Shown here: piece after piece, positions 29,303 to 37,839 of the stretch | Position numbering within the stretch: the stretch's first letter is position 1 | How the letters are laid out: every line of letters starts with the position of its first letter | Assembly: GCF_900110915.1 (NCBI RefSeq) | Contig: NZ_FOFG01000002.1 | Span: 62,001 to 126,000 of the forward strand | Source of the DNA: Faunimonas pinastri | GTDB taxonomy: Bacteria; Pseudomonadota; Alphaproteobacteria; Rhizobiales; Afifellaceae | Reading direction: 5' to 3' | DNA length: 64,000 nt | Made by a program: the position numbers and the translations under genes | Notes under the pieces: generated by a model | What the model was told of the DNA's origin: nothing | The model's input: the letters and a program-made list of their open reading frames with translations, nothing else | The model's database searches: none

Positions 29303-29449
29303 TATGACCTTCCCGGCTTTGCCGCGGGACAATGATCGCTACGAAGCTTTAAGCGCAATCCCTATCTGAATCGAGCCCGTGTATAATACGCGTCGCGTCG
29401 GCAGCAGAAGCGACACAAGCTTCATTACGAACCGGCGGTGAGGAGGATC

Positions 29450-31291
29450 ATGACCCGCAAGCCCAGGAGCGACACCGCGCCCTCCCGGCCCGATCAGGCG
29501 TCGGCAGCCAGCCCCGACGGGCGCGCCGATCCGGACCTCCTCGCGCGCAATCTTTCCGCCGCGATGGAGGTGGGGATGCGCGTTTTCTCCGCCCTCCTCT
29601 CCCGGTCCGGGCCGGATGGCGACCAGCCGGGCGCGATGAGCTCGCATCTGGGTGTCGCCCTGCGCGCGCTCTCGCCGGTGATCGGCTACTGGACCGCAAA
29701 TCCCGAGCGGCAGAGCGTGGCCCAGGCACGCCTTCTCGCGCAGTTCGCCGCGATCTTCACGACGGCGGCGCTGAAGGCGCGCGGCGAGACGCCGGAAGGC
29801 ACGATGCAGCCGGGGGCGCGCGACCGCCGTTTTTCCGCGCCGGAATGGACCGAGAACCCGCTCCTCGATTCGCTGAAGCAGGTGTATCTGGCCGGGGGTC
29901 GCTGGGCGCGGCAACTCGTCGACGAGACGGAGGGGCTGGACGAGGACGAGCGCCTGAAAGCCCGGTTCTTCCTGACGCAAATCGTCAGCGCGATGGCCCC
30001 CACCAACTTCCCCGCCCTCAATCCGGAAGTCTTGCAGGAGGCGAAGGCCAGCGATGGCGAAAGCCTGCTGCGCGGCATGCGGTTTCTGGACGAGGACGTG
30101 CAGGCGCCCGGCGGCGGGATCCGGCTCCGCCAGTCCGATCCCCGCCCTTTCGAGCTCGGGCGGGACCTTGCGTCGACGCCGGGCAAGGTCGTCGCCCAGA
30201 ACGACCTCTGCCAGATCATCCAGTACGCGCCCGCGACCGGAAAGGTCCTGAAGCGGCCGCTGCTGATCGTGCCGCCCTGGATCAACAAGTTCTACGTGCT
30301 CGATCTCGGCCCCGACAAATCCTTCATCCGGTGGGCGGTCGAACAGGGCCACACCGTGTTCCTGATCTCCTGGGTCAATCCGGACGAGCGCCACGCAACG
30401 AAGGATTTCGCGGCCTATGTGCGGGAGGGCATCTTTGCCGCGCTCGACGTCGTGGAAGCCATCACGGGCGAGCGGCAAACCAATGTCATCGGCTATTGCA
30501 TCGGCGGTACGCTGCTGGCCATGGCGCTCGCCCGCCTGGCGGCGCTCGGCGAGGACCGCATCGCCACCGCCACCATGATGACCGCGCAGGTGGATTTCCG
30601 GAATGCCGGCGACCTCAGGGTCTTCGTCGACGAGGAACAGATCGCGGCGCTTGAAAAGGACATGGCGGCGACGGGTTTCCTCCCGGGCGCGCAGATGGCC
30701 AACGTCTTCAACATGCTGAGGCCGGACGACCTGATCTGGCCTTACGTCATCGACACCTACTACAAGGGCAAGGAGCCCCGCCCCTTCGACATCCTGCACT
30801 GGAATGCCGATTCCACGCGCCTGCCGGCGGCCAATCACTCCTTCTATCTTCGCAACTGCTACCTGGAGAACAATCTCGCGCGCGGGCTGATGGAGATCGA
30901 GGGAGAGAAGGTGGAGCTCGGGCGCGTCCGCGTTCCCCTCTACCACCTGGCGGCGGAGGGCGACCATATCTCGCCCGCCCGCTCGATCTTCGCCGGAGCG
31001 CGGCTCTTCGGCGGCCCCGCGCGTTTCGTGCTTGCCGGCTCCGGTCACATCGCCGGGGTCATCAATCCGCCATCGCGCGGCAAGTACCATTTCCGGGCCG
31101 GCGAAACCGACGCGGCGACGCTGGAGGAATGGCAGGCGAAAGCCGAGCTGCGACCCGGCTCCTGGTGGCCGGACTGGCACGATTGGGTGAGCCGCGCGGA
31201 TGACCGAAAGGTCGGGGCACGCCAGCCCGGAAGCCGCGACTTTCCCCCGATCGAGGATGCGCCCGGCTCCTATGTTCGCGTCAGCGGCTGA
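29450..31291 (+). CDS. phaC: class I polyhydroxyalkanoate synthase
   Basis: Poly(3-hydroxyalkanoate) synthase of 613 residues, which polymerises hydroxyacyl-CoA into storage polyester on granules. The lipase-like box GYCIGG (Gly348-Tyr349-Cys350) gives the nucleophile Cys350; Asp505 (EGDHIS) and His533 (SGHIAGV) complete the triad. Other family parts: VPPWINKFYVLDLGP, WNADSTRLPAANHSFYLRN. Single-gene length is that of class I (no PhaE/R). The ATG at 29450 has an AGGAGG site. A TATAAT box occurs at 29382-29387 in the divergent promoter region, though a good -35 is not visible. phaA and phaB are not here, as usual. Confidence 0.95.
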   Translation: MTRKPRSDTAPSRPDQASAASPDGRADPDLLARNLSAAMEVGMRVFSALLSRSGPDGDQPGAMSSHLGVALRALSPVIGYWTANPERQSVAQARLLAQFAAIFTTAALKARGETPEGTMQPGARDRRFSAPEWTENPLLDSLKQVYLAGGRWARQLVDETEGLDEDERLKARFFLTQIVSAMAPTNFPALNPEVLQEAKASDGESLLRGMRFLDEDVQAPGGGIRLRQSDPRPFELGRDLASTPGKVVAQNDLCQIIQYAPATGKVLKRPLLIVPPWINKFYVLDLGPDKSFIRWAVEQGHTVFLISWVNPDERHATKDFAAYVREGIFAALDVVEAITGERQTNVIGYCIGGTLLAMALARLAALGEDRIATATMMTAQVDFRNAGDLRVFVDEEQIAALEKDMAATGFLPGAQMANVFNMLRPDDLIWPYVIDTYYKGKEPRPFDILHWNADSTRLPAANHSFYLRNCYLENNLARGLMEIEGEKVELGRVRVPLYHLAAEGDHISPARSIFAGARLFGGPARFVLAGSGHIAGVINPPSRGKYHFRAGETDAATLEEWQAKAELRPGSWWPDWHDWVSRADDRKVGARQPGSRDFPPIEDAPGSYVRVSG

Positions 31292-31394: not shown

Positions 31395-32549
31395 ATGTCC
31401 CTGCATCGCAGAATGGCTGCTTTCGCGGCAGCCACTGCCCTCGCATCGTCCCTGTCCGTCCTCGTGGCGGCTCCTGCGCACGCCATAGAGCCTAAGGACG
31501 CGGCTAAGGCGCTCGGCGTCGCCATGGCCGATGGCGACGAGTCCAAGGTCACATTCGAACAGGCGACGATGGACGGCGCCAATGTGGTCGTGACCGGCCT
31601 GAGCTTCGCGCAGGGCGAAACCAGCCAGGGCACTCTTCGCTTCGACAAGACCGTGATACAGGCGCCGGTGGACGGCACCGGCGACGTCGCCTTCACCTCG
31701 CCGAAGGTGGATTTCACGGGCGGCACCATTGCCGGCAATGCGATCGGCAGCGTGGAAAGCGCGGCACTCACCGATCTGCGCGTGATGCGGCAGGATGCGA
31801 TAACCGGCAAGAAGATCGCCGAAGGCGCCGTCTTTTCGTCCGGCGAGGCCCACAACATCCACTTCCGCCCGTCCTCGCAGCAGGACGAGATGACGGTGGA
31901 CCAGTTCGTCGTCCACTCCGGCGACATCGTCGACAACGTGCCTCAGCAGAGCAGCGGCAAGGCCGACCACATCATCGTGCCGGCCACCTGGTTCGCGCAG
32001 GCCAACGTGACGCCGAAGACGCTGGGCTACGACCGGCTCGATTTCGCGCTGAACTGGGACGGCGCGCGCGATCCGAAGACGCAGCTCGTCACCCTGAACG
32101 ACTTCACGCTGGACCTGAAGGACGGCGGCACACTGAAGCTGACCGGCCAGGTCGGCAACGTGCCGGTCGGCGCGGCGGCTCCCGATTCGCCCGGTGCCAT
32201 CGCCAGCCAGGCCGTTATCCACAATCTGAAGCTTCGCTACGAGGATCACTCGCTCGCGTCCCGCATCCTCAAGGCGCAGTCCGAGCAGCAGGGCGTGTCG
32301 CCGGACCAGTATGCCCAGCAGCTCGGCATGGCCCTGCCCTTCCTGCTCTCCGCGATCGGCAACCAGAAATTCGCTTCCGAGGTCTCCGGGGCGGTTTCCA
32401 CCTTCCTCAAGAACCCGCAGTCCTTGACGGTCACGCTGGCTCCGAACCCGCCGGTTTCCGGAGCGGAGATCGTGCAACTCGTGCAGACTGCCCCCGACAC
32501 GGCTCCGGACCGGCTGAACGCACATGTGACGGCGAACAGTTCGCAATAA
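31395..32549 (+). CDS. exported protein of unknown family, paralog of next gene (short member)
   Basis: A 384-residue protein with a signal peptide about 1-30 (MAAFAAATALASSLSVLVAAPAHA). The body is rich in short beta strands alternating with turns (VVVTGLSF, TLRFDKTVIQAP, FTSPKVDFTGG), with no catalytic motif. Residues about 190-384 form a module that recurs in the next gene: VPATWFAQ/LGYDRLDFAL, LNDFTLDLKDGGTLKLTG, ALPFLLSAIGNQK and LTVTLAPNPPV. The ATG at 31395 has GGAG and gives an exact signal peptide. It is 40 bases before its larger paralog and 103 after phaC. Function unknown; a periplasmic or outer-membrane-facing beta-rich domain is the most I can say. Confidence 0.75.
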   Translation: MSLHRRMAAFAAATALASSLSVLVAAPAHAIEPKDAAKALGVAMADGDESKVTFEQATMDGANVVVTGLSFAQGETSQGTLRFDKTVIQAPVDGTGDVAFTSPKVDFTGGTIAGNAIGSVESAALTDLRVMRQDAITGKKIAEGAVFSSGEAHNIHFRPSSQQDEMTVDQFVVHSGDIVDNVPQQSSGKADHIIVPATWFAQANVTPKTLGYDRLDFALNWDGARDPKTQLVTLNDFTLDLKDGGTLKLTGQVGNVPVGAAAPDSPGAIASQAVIHNLKLRYEDHSLASRILKAQSEQQGVSPDQYAQQLGMALPFLLSAIGNQKFASEVSGAVSTFLKNPQSLTVTLAPNPPVSGAEIVQLVQTAPDTAPDRLNAHVTANSSQ

Positions 32550-32589
32550 TGAACTCTGTCGCCAATTAACGAGATCGTCGGGGGGCGAA

Positions 32590-34665
32590 ATGCCGCAAAA
32601 GTTAGTTCTTCACGCGCTGCTGCTGGCATCCGTTTCCGGGCCGGTCCTTATGGGGACGGCCCGGGCCGACGGGCAGAGCGAAGCGCTCGTCAAGGGCTTC
32701 ATCGCAGCGGTGGGGCTGTCCAGGGACTGGTCCGCCAACGCCGCATCGGTGCGCTCGGAAGGAGCGGACACGATCGCGGAAAACGTGCTGATCTCCAACG
32801 GCGGCCAGCAGTTCAGCGTTAAGATCGGGCGGCTTCGGCTGCGTGACCTCCACGCGGCGACCGGTGGAGGCTTCGCGGCGTCCGAAGCGGAGCTCTCCGG
32901 CGTGCAGCTCCGCACGCCGAGCGAGGACGAGGATGTCTCGTCCATCAAGATCGCCTCACCGCTGATCGGCAACCTCGGCGCCATCCGCGTCGATGTCAGC
33001 AATCCGGCTTCCCTCTCCGGAGCGGCCTACGAGGCTATGTCAAAGTCCTCTTTCGGCTCTCTCGACGTGCAGTCCGTGACCTCGACCGTCAAGGAGAAGG
33101 CGCAGGATTCCGACCAGCTGACCCCGACGGCCCGGATGTCGATGGACAGCCTGCACCTGGACGAATTGAAGGACGGCGTGATCGCCAGCTTCAACTCCGG
33201 GCCGATACGCTCCGACATGCAACCCGCCGGCAAGATGCCGGGTTGGACGCTCTCGGGAGCGGCACTGACCGGCGCCCATCTCGATGTCGGGGCGGCCGCT
33301 CATGTCTACCAGCCATCGGCCTACGTCGACGGCAAGGGCGATGCCCAGTGGCGAACGGTCCTCCGGCAGGCCGCCATGAAGGACGTGACGAGCAAGCGTC
33401 TGGACGATGATCGTTTCAGCGCCCATCTCGGAAACATCAGTCTCGAAGATTTCCAGATGCGCCAGCCCGCGAAACCGTTCGGCGCGGATGTCGGCTGGCT
33501 GATGAACCACCGTCCGAATGGACCGCTCGACCCGAACAGCGTCGAACATCTCGCCAACGTGACCAGCGCCTATCGCCTCGGACGCATGGTGCTGTCCGAT
33601 TTCGCCGCGACGGACGGCACGGCGGATGCTCCTGTGGAGGCGACGTTCGATGAAGTCAGCTTCGAGGGCTTCGACATCGACGGCTTGGAAGCATTCGCCT
33701 TGCGGGACCTCAAGATCTCCAGTCCCGAAGCCCGTGGCGGCTTGCAATCGCTCCAGTTCGGTGGCCTCCGATTGCCGCCTCGCGAGTACTTCAAGGCCCT
33801 TCTCGAAGCCGAGAACGCTCACGACCAACCCGCCATCACGCTCGCGGCGCGCAAGATGGTCCCAGGGTTGGAGCGGTTCCATCTCGATCATTTCGCTTTC
33901 GGCACTTCGCCTCAGAAGACGATGACGTTGAAGGCGCTGGATGTCCATGCGACGCCGGGCGCAACTTTCGATGCCCCCGCGTCTGCCGAGGATGTCACTC
34001 TCGATACGCTGGTCGTTCCAGCAGAGCTGATCCGAAGCGACGAAAACGCCGAGATCCTGGATGCTCTCGGCTATAGCCAGTTCGTCCTGGACGGTACGGG
34101 CAAGGGTACCTATGAGGCGTCCGCCGGCCGGTTCGACGGCAGCACGACGCTCACCTTGAAGGATGCCGGCGCGTTCACGCTGTCCGCCGATCTTTCTGGC
34201 ATGACGCAGCAATGGTTCGAGGCCTTCGAAAAGGTGCAGGCCCGCGCCGGCAGGGACGTGGAGAGCCTCGCTGCCCAGCAGGCCGTTCTCGCCGCATTTG
34301 GCAAGCTTACCCTCAACGGAGCATCAGTCCGCGTCAGCGACCGTTCGATCGTCGGTCGCGCGTTCGCCCTGGCGGCGGAGAAGAAGGGCCAGACCGGCCC
34401 GGAGATGCAGCAGCAGACGGTTGCGGCGTTGCCCTTCCTGCTGCAAAGCGGGTTGAAGAACCCGGGACTGGTCAAGACCCTGACCGGCCCGCTGCAGGAG
34501 TTCCTGGGCGGCGGCAAGACGCTGGTTCTGACGCTGGCGCCGAAATCGCCCGTTCCGCTCGAGGAGGTCGCCAGCGCCGCACAGAGCGACCCGCAATCCA
34601 TCCCGCAGATCCTGAACCTTCAGGCAGCCTCGCAAGCCAACCCACCTGCCCGGACGCAACCCTGA
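32590..34665 (+). CDS. large exported protein sharing a C-terminal module with the previous gene
   Basis: A 691-residue protein with signal peptide about 1-26 (LLLASVSGPVLMGTARA). The long middle (about 30-470) is made of repeated beta-strand-like segments (GRLRLRDLHAATGGGF, FDEVSFEGFDIDGLEAFALRDLKISSP, LQFGGLRLPPREYF). Residues about 472-691 match the C-terminus of the upstream protein: LVVPAELIRSDEN/LGYSQFVLDG, GSTTLTLKDAGAFTLS, ALPFLLQSGLKNPG and LVLTLAPKSPV. Downstream is a strong hairpin shared with aspS. No function recognised; the shared module and tandem order suggest duplication with later growth of the middle. The likely place is the periplasm. Confidence 0.8.
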   Translation: MPQKLVLHALLLASVSGPVLMGTARADGQSEALVKGFIAAVGLSRDWSANAASVRSEGADTIAENVLISNGGQQFSVKIGRLRLRDLHAATGGGFAASEAELSGVQLRTPSEDEDVSSIKIASPLIGNLGAIRVDVSNPASLSGAAYEAMSKSSFGSLDVQSVTSTVKEKAQDSDQLTPTARMSMDSLHLDELKDGVIASFNSGPIRSDMQPAGKMPGWTLSGAALTGAHLDVGAAAHVYQPSAYVDGKGDAQWRTVLRQAAMKDVTSKRLDDDRFSAHLGNISLEDFQMRQPAKPFGADVGWLMNHRPNGPLDPNSVEHLANVTSAYRLGRMVLSDFAATDGTADAPVEATFDEVSFEGFDIDGLEAFALRDLKISSPEARGGLQSLQFGGLRLPPREYFKALLEAENAHDQPAITLAARKMVPGLERFHLDHFAFGTSPQKTMTLKALDVHATPGATFDAPASAEDVTLDTLVVPAELIRSDENAEILDALGYSQFVLDGTGKGTYEASAGRFDGSTTLTLKDAGAFTLSADLSGMTQQWFEAFEKVQARAGRDVESLAAQQAVLAAFGKLTLNGASVRVSDRSIVGRAFALAAEKKGQTGPEMQQQTVAALPFLLQSGLKNPGLVKTLTGPLQEFLGGGKTLVLTLAPKSPVPLEEVASAAQSDPQSIPQILNLQAASQANPPARTQP

Positions 34666-34687: not shown

Positions 34688-34719
34688 AAAGGGCGCGGAG
34701 CCGAAGCTCCGCGCCCTTT
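34688..34719. terminator. bidirectional terminator between the exported paralog and aspS
   Basis: AAAGGGCGCGGAGC, tetraloop CGAA, GCTCCGCGCCCTTT: a perfect 14-base-pair stem flanked by A- and T-rich ends. It can stop both the plus-strand exported-protein transcript and the minus-strand aspS transcript. Confidence 0.93.
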
Positions 34720-34737: not shown

Positions 34738-36513
34738 TCAGGCCTTCGGCGCTGTCCGGATGTGCAGCTCGCGCAGCTGCTTGGGCGTCGCTTCCGAGGG
34801 AGCACCCATCAGAAGATCCTCGGCCTGCTGGTTCATCGGGAACATGGTGATCTCGCGCAGGTTCTTGGCCCCGCACAGAAGCATCACGATGCGATCGAGA
34901 CCGGCCGCCATGCCGCCATGCGGCGGTGCGCCGAACTGCAGCGCGCGCAGCATGCCGCCGAAGCGCTCTTCCAGCACCTCCTCGCCATAGCCCGCGATAC
35001 CGAAGGCCTTCTTCATGATCTCGGCCTTGTGGTTGCGGATGGCGCCCGAGACGATCTCGAAGCCGTTGCAGACCGCGTCATACTGGAAGGCGTCGATGGT
35101 CAGCGGATCCTTGCTTTCCAGCGCCTCCAGCCCGCCCTGCGGCATGGAGAAGGGATTGTGCGAGAAGTCGACCTTCTTGTCCTCGTCGTTCCACTCGAAC
35201 ATGGGGAAGTCGACGATCCAGGCGAGCGCGAAGCGGTTCTCGTCGATCAGGCCGAGCTCCTGCCCGACGCGCGTGCGGGCGGAGCCGGCGAAATCGAAGA
35301 AGTTCTTCGGCTGACCCGCCACGAAGAACACGGCATCGCCGGTCTTCAGGCCGAGCTGCGACTGGATCGCGGCCGTGCGCTCCGGCCCGATGTTCTTGGC
35401 GACCGGACCCGCGCCGCCGTCTTCGCCCTCGCGGAAGAAGATGTAGCCGAGGCCGGGCTGGCCGGAACTCTGCGCCCAGGAGTTCATGCGGTCGCAGAAG
35501 GCGCGATTGCCGCCACCGGGAGCCGGGATCGCCCAGACCTGAACGTTGGGATCGGCCTCGATCATCCGTGCGAAGACCTTGAAGTCGGACCCGGCGAAAT
35601 GCTCGGTAACCTCGGCCATCTTGATCGGATTGCGGAGATCCGGCTTGTCGCTGCCGTACCAGCGGATGGAATCGGCATAGCGGATGCGCGGGAACTCGGC
35701 GGTGACCGGCTTGCCTTCGGCGAACGCCTCGAAGATGCCGCGGATCACCGGCTCCATCGTGGAGAGCACGTCTTCCTGCGTGACGAAGCTCATCTCGATG
35801 TCGAGCTGGTAGAACTCGCCCGGCAGGCGGTCGGCGCGCGGATCCTCGTCGCGGAAGCAGGGAGCGATCTGGAAATAGCGGTCGAAGCCCGCCATCATGA
35901 TCAGCTGCTTGAACTGCTGCGGCGCCTGCGGCAGGGCGTAGAACGTGCCGGGATGGATGCGCGAGGGCACCAGGAAGTCGCGCGCGCCTTCCGGCGAGGA
36001 AGCCGTCAGGATCGGCGTCTGGAATTCGTTGAAGCCCTGCTCCCGCATCAGCTCACGCATCTTCGCGACGACCGCCACGCGGCGCATGATGTTGCGGTGA
36101 AGCGTCTCGCGGCGCAGGTCCAGGAAACGATACTTGAGGCGCGTGTCCTCGGGATAGTCGGGTTCGCCGAAGACCGGCACCGGCAGTTCCGGCGCTTCCG
36201 ACAGCACCTCGATCTCGCTGGCATGCACCTCGATGGCACCGGTGGCGAGGTTGGGGTTCGCCGTCTCCGGCGAGCGCGCCTTCACCTTGCCGTCGATGCG
36301 CAGGCACCATTCCGAACGGACCGTCTCCGCTGTCGCGAAAGCGGCCGAATCCGGATCGACGACGATCTGGGTCAGTCCGTAATGGTCGCGAAGATCGATG
36401 AACAGCAGTCCACCATGGTCGCGGACGCGGTGGACCCATCCGGAGAGCCGAACCTCGGCGCCGGCGTCGTCCTGCCGGAGCGCGCCGCAGGTATGTGTTC
36501 TATAGCGATGCAT
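34738..36513 (-). CDS. aspS: aspartyl-tRNA synthetase
   Basis: Class II aminoacyl-tRNA synthetase, 591 residues, normal for bacterial AspRS. The N-terminal OB domain ([34 protein letters not shown]), class II motif 1 ([21 protein letters not shown]), motif 2 ([21 protein letters not shown]) and the bacterial GAD insertion region followed by motif 3 ([14 protein letters not shown]) are all present. The ATG at 36513 gives [10 protein letters not shown], the family start. Divergent from rnd with 135 bases between. Whether it also charges tRNA-Asn cannot be told here. Confidence 0.97.
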
Positions 36514-36648
36514 GATGGCCCGCAGTGTTGCCGATTTGTTGAATTCCGGCGCGAAAAGCGCAGATGGCGGTTGTGGTGTCAAGGCCGGTGGAAATGCGGC
36601 GATTTTCCGTTTGCGGATCGCGACGAATGCCTTTTTGATGGCCCGCGC

Positions 36649-37839
36649 ATGACAGACTCCGCAGAATTCACGGTCTTTACCGATCCCACCGAGGTTGCCG
36701 CGCTTTGCGGTCGGCTTAAGCATTCACCCTTTGTCACGGTCGACACGGAGTTCATCCGCGAGAGCACCTATTGGGCGCAGCTCTGCCTGATCCAGATCGC
36801 GAGCCCCGACGAGGTCGCCATCATCGACCCGCTCGCGCCCGGCATGGACCTCGCGCCCTTCTTCGCCCTGATGGCGGACGAGACGGTGCTGAAGGTGTTC
36901 CACGCCGCCCGCCAGGACATCGAGATCTTCGTGAAGCTCTCCGATGCCGTGCCGCGCCCCCTGTTCGATACGCAGGTGGCCGCCATGGTCTGCGGCTTCG
37001 GCGACCAGGTAAGCTACGACCAGCTCGTCCAGCGCCTCGCGGGCAAACAGATCGACAAGTCGTCCCGCTTCACCGACTGGGCCCGCCGTCCGCTGACGGG
37101 CAAGCAGCTCGCCTACGCCGCCGCCGACGTCATCTATCTCCGCGACGTCTATGCCGGCCTGCAGGCCGATCTGGAGGAACGCGGGCGCACGCAGTGGGTG
37201 TCGGAGGAAATGGCGATCCTCGCCGATCCCGCGACCTACCGCACCCATCCCGAAGATGCGTGGGAGCGGCTGAAGATGCGGGTCAAGAAACCCCGCCAGC
37301 TTGCCGCCCTCCAGGCCCTTGCCGCCTGGCGCGAACGGGAGGCGCAGCAGCGCGACCAGCCGCGCGGGCGCGTGCTCAAGGACGACGCGATCTATGAGCT
37401 GGCGATCCAGCAGCCGCGCGATGCCGAGGCGTTGGCCCAGCTCCGCAGCCTTCCGCGCGGGTTCGAACGCTCCAGCGCCGGGCGGGGCATCCTCGAAGCG
37501 ATCGCTTCCGCGCTGGCCCTGCCGGAAGCCGACCTGCCGCATCTGCCGCGCCAGCGTCCCGCGCCGGAACATGCGAGCGCCGCCGCCGACCTCCTGAAGG
37601 TGCTGCTCAAGATGGTGTCCGAGCAGCACCGGGTCGCCTCCCGCGTCATCGCGACTTCGGAAGACCTGGAGCAGATCGCCGTCAATGACGAGCCGGACGT
37701 GCCGGCCATGCATGGCTGGCGGCGCGAACTCTTCGGCGAACTGGCGCTTTCCCTGAAACGCGGCGATCTCGCCCTGGCCCTGTCGCGACGCGGCATCGTG
37801 GCCATGGACACCACGAAGGAGGCCGCGGCCGCCGAATAG
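36649..37839 (+). CDS. rnd: ribonuclease D
   Basis: 3'-5' exoribonuclease of 396 residues acting on tRNA 3' ends. DEDDy exonuclease domain: [11 protein letters not shown] (Asp, Glu), [11 protein letters not shown] (Asp) and [13 protein letters not shown] (Tyr/Asp), then two HRDC-like helical domains ([19 protein letters not shown] at about 215-235, and a second towards the end). The ATG at 36649 starts [10 protein letters not shown]; the open frame reaching far back under aspS is not a real fusion. Convergent with ppx; a stem-loop follows the stop. Confidence 0.93.

Follow-up and report, generated by a model that had tools for sequence, protein, structure and literature searches.

A tandem pair of exported, beta-rich proteins downstream of phaC belongs to a widespread alphaproteobacterial family absent from reference catalogues

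A gene pair between phaC and aspS

The window analysed here, a 64,000-nucleotide stretch of Faunimonas pinastri DNA, contains two neighbouring forward-strand genes for a short protein of 384 aa (P1, positions 31395 to 32549) and a long one of 691 aa (P2, positions 32590 to 34665). Their reading frames and signal-peptide-like N-termini bear out what a sequence-only reading of this DNA had proposed, namely two exported proteins of 384 and 691 residues whose genes lie 40 bases apart. By inspection, both signal sequences are of the cleavable type, ending in AHA in P1 (...APAHA/IEP; residues ~1 to 30) and in ARA in P2 (...TARA/DGQ; residues ~1 to 26). In P1, the signal peptide is followed by an N-terminal module (~31 to 135), a predicted beta-sheet, and a C-terminal sheet with a helical cap (~190 to 384), while P2 consists of an N-terminal module (~27 to 130), an extra stretch of predicted beta-sheet, and a C-terminal part. 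There is no cysteine in either protein, and hence no lipobox.

As originally described, the pair is located after phaC, a co-directional gene for PHA synthase (positions 29438 to 31291, forward strand; identified by a Pfam PhaC_N match in an orthologue) that ends 103 bases before the start of P1. On the other side, the 72-base gap between P2 and the convergent gene aspS (positions 34738 to 36723, reverse strand), which we take from its recognisable sequence to encode aspartyl-tRNA synthetase, holds the hairpin AAAGGGCGCGGAGC-CGAA-GCTCCGCGCCCTTT. Spanning approximately positions 34689 to 34718, this hairpin has a perfect stem of 13 to 14 bp with an A-run on one side and a T-run on the other. 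A consensus terminator scan did not pick it up, but folding of 75 nt reveals it (minimum free energy -43 kcal/mol, z -5.4). Such a strong structure agrees with the proposal that the pair has its own terminator, and the hairpin is likely to act in both directions, on the pair and on aspS.

Homology of the short and long members

The likeness of P1 and P2, first noticed by eye, is real and far exceeds chance. BLASTP aligned the two proteins at E 3e-12 over 102 residues. With 28 homologues in the short-member profile and 23 in the long-member one, the family profiles matched each other at E 1e-49 over 326 columns, compared with 1.3e-4 for the reversed target. The quoted motifs TLDLKDGGTLKL/TLTLKDAGAFTL, ALPFLL, and LTVTLAPNPP/LVLTLAPKSP are all present; so are the elements of a further motif given as VPA-x(20)-LGY, but with spacings of 12 and 14 rather than 20 residues. 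Similarly, the shared C-terminal module exists but had been underestimated at about 200 residues, since residues 62 to 384 of P1 are equivalent to residues 331 to 689 of P2, a module of ~320 residues.

Homology extends to the N-terminal region as well, over ~100 residues of either protein (profile-profile E 6.6e-14; reversed, 0.0037), which reduces the extra beta-sheet region claimed for the long protein from 440 to ~300 residues. On these alignments, P2 is a length variant of P1 with ~300 additional residues of predicted beta-sheet in mid-protein. P1 also matches the N-terminal half of P2 (profile-profile E 2e-12 over 210 columns); because it matches the C-terminal part of P2 too, this suggests by transitivity that P2 holds a repeated sheet module. 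Direct comparison of the two halves of P2 is suggestive only (1.7e-4 versus 5e-3 reversed). In a tree of the C-terminal module, short members tend to group with short and long with long (6 label changes versus 17 when shuffled), and the deep forks are without support. The tree thus neither shows nor excludes a single ancient duplication into short and long members.

A widespread family without a curated model

Among 61 related genomes searched, the long protein found matches in 25 and the short protein in 30, and within the order the family is present in about half of the relatives sampled. At the level of the class, a profile of the C-terminal module had matches in 48 of 289 alphaproteobacterial genomes. 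Distant alphaproteobacterial members measure ~460 to 680 aa, and many of them begin with a hydrophobic, anchor-like helix in the place of a cleavable signal peptide. A Bacillota MAG contig also gave a weak match (33% over 51 residues), which may be due to chance.

Gene arrangement was inspected at 34 loci, 12 from the window's own taxonomic family and 22 from other families. Members stand in tandem at 16 of them, normally short then long, with one locus reversed such that the long member comes first, 1.8 kb away. One locus carries three tandem members (379, 395, and 682 aa), and the same genome has an unlinked member of 779 aa. Since lone short or lone long genes are also common, the pair is not obligate, and the idea of an obligate two-component system is not supported.

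The initial impression that the proteins contain no known domain was confirmed: no member, window proteins included, reached a cut-off in Pfam or NCBIfam. The Pfam cut-offs for AsmA, DUF748, and TamB were unreached by the window proteins and by 73 other members scanned, with DUF748 appearing in single members at only E 0.019 to 0.042. There was no Pfam match to PF06097 (DUF945) in the members scanned, and the window's own genome is likewise without a PF06097 match. Scattered hits below cut-off, to DUF937, to JHBP over 47 residues, and to extensin in a proline-rich tail, were rejected. Neither a single protein nor the profiles found anything convincing among PDB sequences, and a DUF945 profile searched against the PDB had no match. 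P1 and P2 thus represent a genuine, widespread alphaproteobacterial family that is absent from the reference family catalogues and merits an entry of its own.

Remote similarity to AsmA-type proteins

For comparison with beta-rich families, DUF2125, DUF945, DUF748, and AsmA proteins were collected from genomes and subjected to profile-profile alignment (hhalign) with reversed-profile controls. A union profile of short and distant members matched DUF748 at E 5e-8 (reversed, 0.027), and over 238 columns the short-member profile aligned with the N-terminal portion of that family (E 7.1e-7); the long-member profile alone gave nothing (E 0.0055). The union profile further matched AsmA at E 3.8e-6 and, over only 37 columns, DUF945 at E 2.6e-5 (reversed, 0.0067). 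While the reversed controls for these three pairs ranged from 0.007 to 0.2, other reversed controls of beta-rich profiles reached E 7.5e-6, so that only the DUF748 signal lies above noise, with AsmA and DUF945 near the noise ceiling. DUF2125 (PF09898) was discarded, its E values of 0.025 to 0.12 being hardly better than reversed, as was a DUF945 signal from the distant-member profile (E 1.3e-4), which covered the N-terminal anchor region only and was no stronger than other reversed controls. AsmA- and DUF945-like groups had been named beforehand as the known families to watch for; Pfam models gave no clear hit to either, and the profile-profile signal above its controls is only weak. From these alignments, we consider a distant kinship with AsmA-type proteins probable but unproven.

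Predicted structures and strand periodicity

AlphaFold2, run on the family alignments, returned confident models for both P1 (pLDDT 90.5) and P2 (pLDDT 86.8). In either case, long antiparallel strands with short helices between them build a meandering sheet that ends in helices plus one or two strands, which fits the earlier description of the pair as beta-rich exported proteins and adds a helical C-terminal cap. In Foldseek, the only match of P1 under 0.001 was JlpA (E 5e-4). Its superposition is loose (Z 10.0, rmsd 6.7, 246 residues aligned), and porin barrels score nearly as well (Z 9.8). The top matches of P2 included LptD (E 1.4e-3), the bridge-like lipid-transfer protein LPD-3 (E 1.5e-3), LptH, and ApoB100; LptH had a probability of 1.00 but an E value of 0.03 over 135 columns. 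In VIA, the beta-belts of ApoB100 came first for P2 (Z 13.7, rmsd 9.2, 288 aligned). JlpA was not among the matches listed for P2. Nor were AsmA, TamB, and YhdP among the PDB matches listed, which is no evidence against that fold. The structural matches of both models are weak, with TM-scores mostly between 0.1 and 0.3, and their looseness speaks for a long open sheet as the predicted common feature, not for a particular family.

Along the family profiles, hydrophobicity has a period of five residues (P2 sheet, z 5.3; P1, z 3.5), in a pattern hxhxx that runs across the predicted sheets of the short, long, and distant-member profiles with no clear two-residue periodicity. Odd/even (inside/outside) alternation of hydrophobic residues was not significant in most predicted strands. 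DUF748 shows both the five- and the two-residue periodicity, whereas AsmA, DUF945, and DUF2125 show the latter without the former.

A putative periplasmic groove and its alternatives

Work on how phospholipids pass across the periplasm is ongoing. In E. coli, AsmA-superfamily proteins with repeating beta-grooves have been proposed to transport phospholipids in the anterograde direction, and YhdP, TamB, and YdbH, the players known so far, come from this organism (PMC12977461). Our preferred reading, to which we assign a rough probability of 0.45, is that P1 and P2 are soluble periplasmic beta-groove proteins that bind lipid or another amphiphile. Each protein would form a long, curved, meandering antiparallel beta-sheet, that is, an open half-barrel or groove, which opens with the common N-terminal module and closes with the common C-terminal sheet and helical cap; short and long members would differ in the amount of sheet in between. 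The concave face might carry acyl chains or some other amphiphile, with the C-terminal helices serving as a lid or plug, and the proteins may shuttle or buffer periplasmic lipids in the manner of short AsmA/LptA-type groove proteins. Of the lipid- or polymer-binding bridge modules suggested at the outset, a lipid groove or bridge is compatible with the predicted fold and the weak remote homology; the function itself we infer.

The window's genome carries AsmA-type and TamB genes of its own, and the pair would therefore be accessory instead of the sole route. It is possible, if more doubtful, that the family as a whole, so far alphaproteobacterial, comprises soluble periplasmic beta-groove lipid carriers that take part in lipid traffic between the membranes alongside AsmA and TamB. 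Its marks would be the frequent tandem of a short and a long gene and the five-residue periodicity of the strands. A family this widespread in alphaproteobacteria and lacking a curated model, with a confidently predicted sheet fold and a weak link to the AsmA superfamily, would offer a small, soluble, and testable system for lipid transport.

Proteins of the AsmA-like superfamily (AsmA, DUF748, TamB, YhdP, and YdbH) have the periplasmic location predicted for the pair, are likewise beta-rich, vary in length by added sheet, and share an anchor-like N-terminus with many distant members of our family. Together with the DUF748 similarity of the union and short profiles, these N-termini would fit a divergent branch of the superfamily proper, made of true AsmA/DUF748 homologues that lost their membrane anchor. 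We regard such descent as unlikely, however, given the failure of the long profile to match DUF748, the near-noise score of AsmA itself, and a hydrophobic periodicity unlike that of AsmA. The window proteins also differ from the superfamily in being of signal-peptide type without an N-terminal anchor, in lacking any Pfam hit, in having their own C-terminal helical cap, and in being far shorter than the envelope-spanning TamB or YhdP. DUF945 (YdgA), an anchored family, is beta-rich too and marginally similar by profile, but it differs in periodicity, gives no Pfam match, and aligns over those 37 columns only. The beta-taco proteins LptA/LptH and LptD have a groove-type sheet, and LptH matched the long model; in contrast, no sequence relation to them was found, and the pair is not beside lpt genes. 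With the open meandering sheet of JlpA (Campylobacter jejuni, PDB 3UAU) as the best structural match of P1, a structural or adhesive role in the periplasm or at the surface also comes into view, in which an open half-barrel would engage a protein or glycan partner instead of lipid. Yet JlpA is a lipoprotein and surface adhesin, and the window proteins have no lipobox and no sequence similarity to it (10% in the superposition); as the superposition is so loose and JlpA is missing among the matches listed for P2, we think this role improbable, about on a par with AsmA descent.

Least probable, and by a wide gap, is an exported pair that serves PHA or carbon storage together with phaC. Within the window's own taxonomic family, phaC lies directly upstream and co-directional at 11 of 12 loci, including every locus that has a short member, but at the 22 loci outside that family it is never adjacent, and a general link with PHA metabolism is not supported by this comparison. 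Moreover, PHA granules are cytoplasmic, at odds with the export signals of both proteins. We see the phaC adjacency as a feature of that taxonomic family.

The most widely conserved neighbour is aspS, within 1.5 kb at 17 of the 34 loci and within 2.4 kb at four more, often followed by genes that we presume from recognisable sequence, not from a family search, to be rnd, ppx, and ppk. This aspS-rnd-ppx-ppk array we regard as inherited gene order, not as functional linkage. On the side away from aspS, a gene for a CSS-motif EAL protein (Pfam; cyclic-di-GMP phosphodiesterase type) lies near family members at 8 of the 34 loci.
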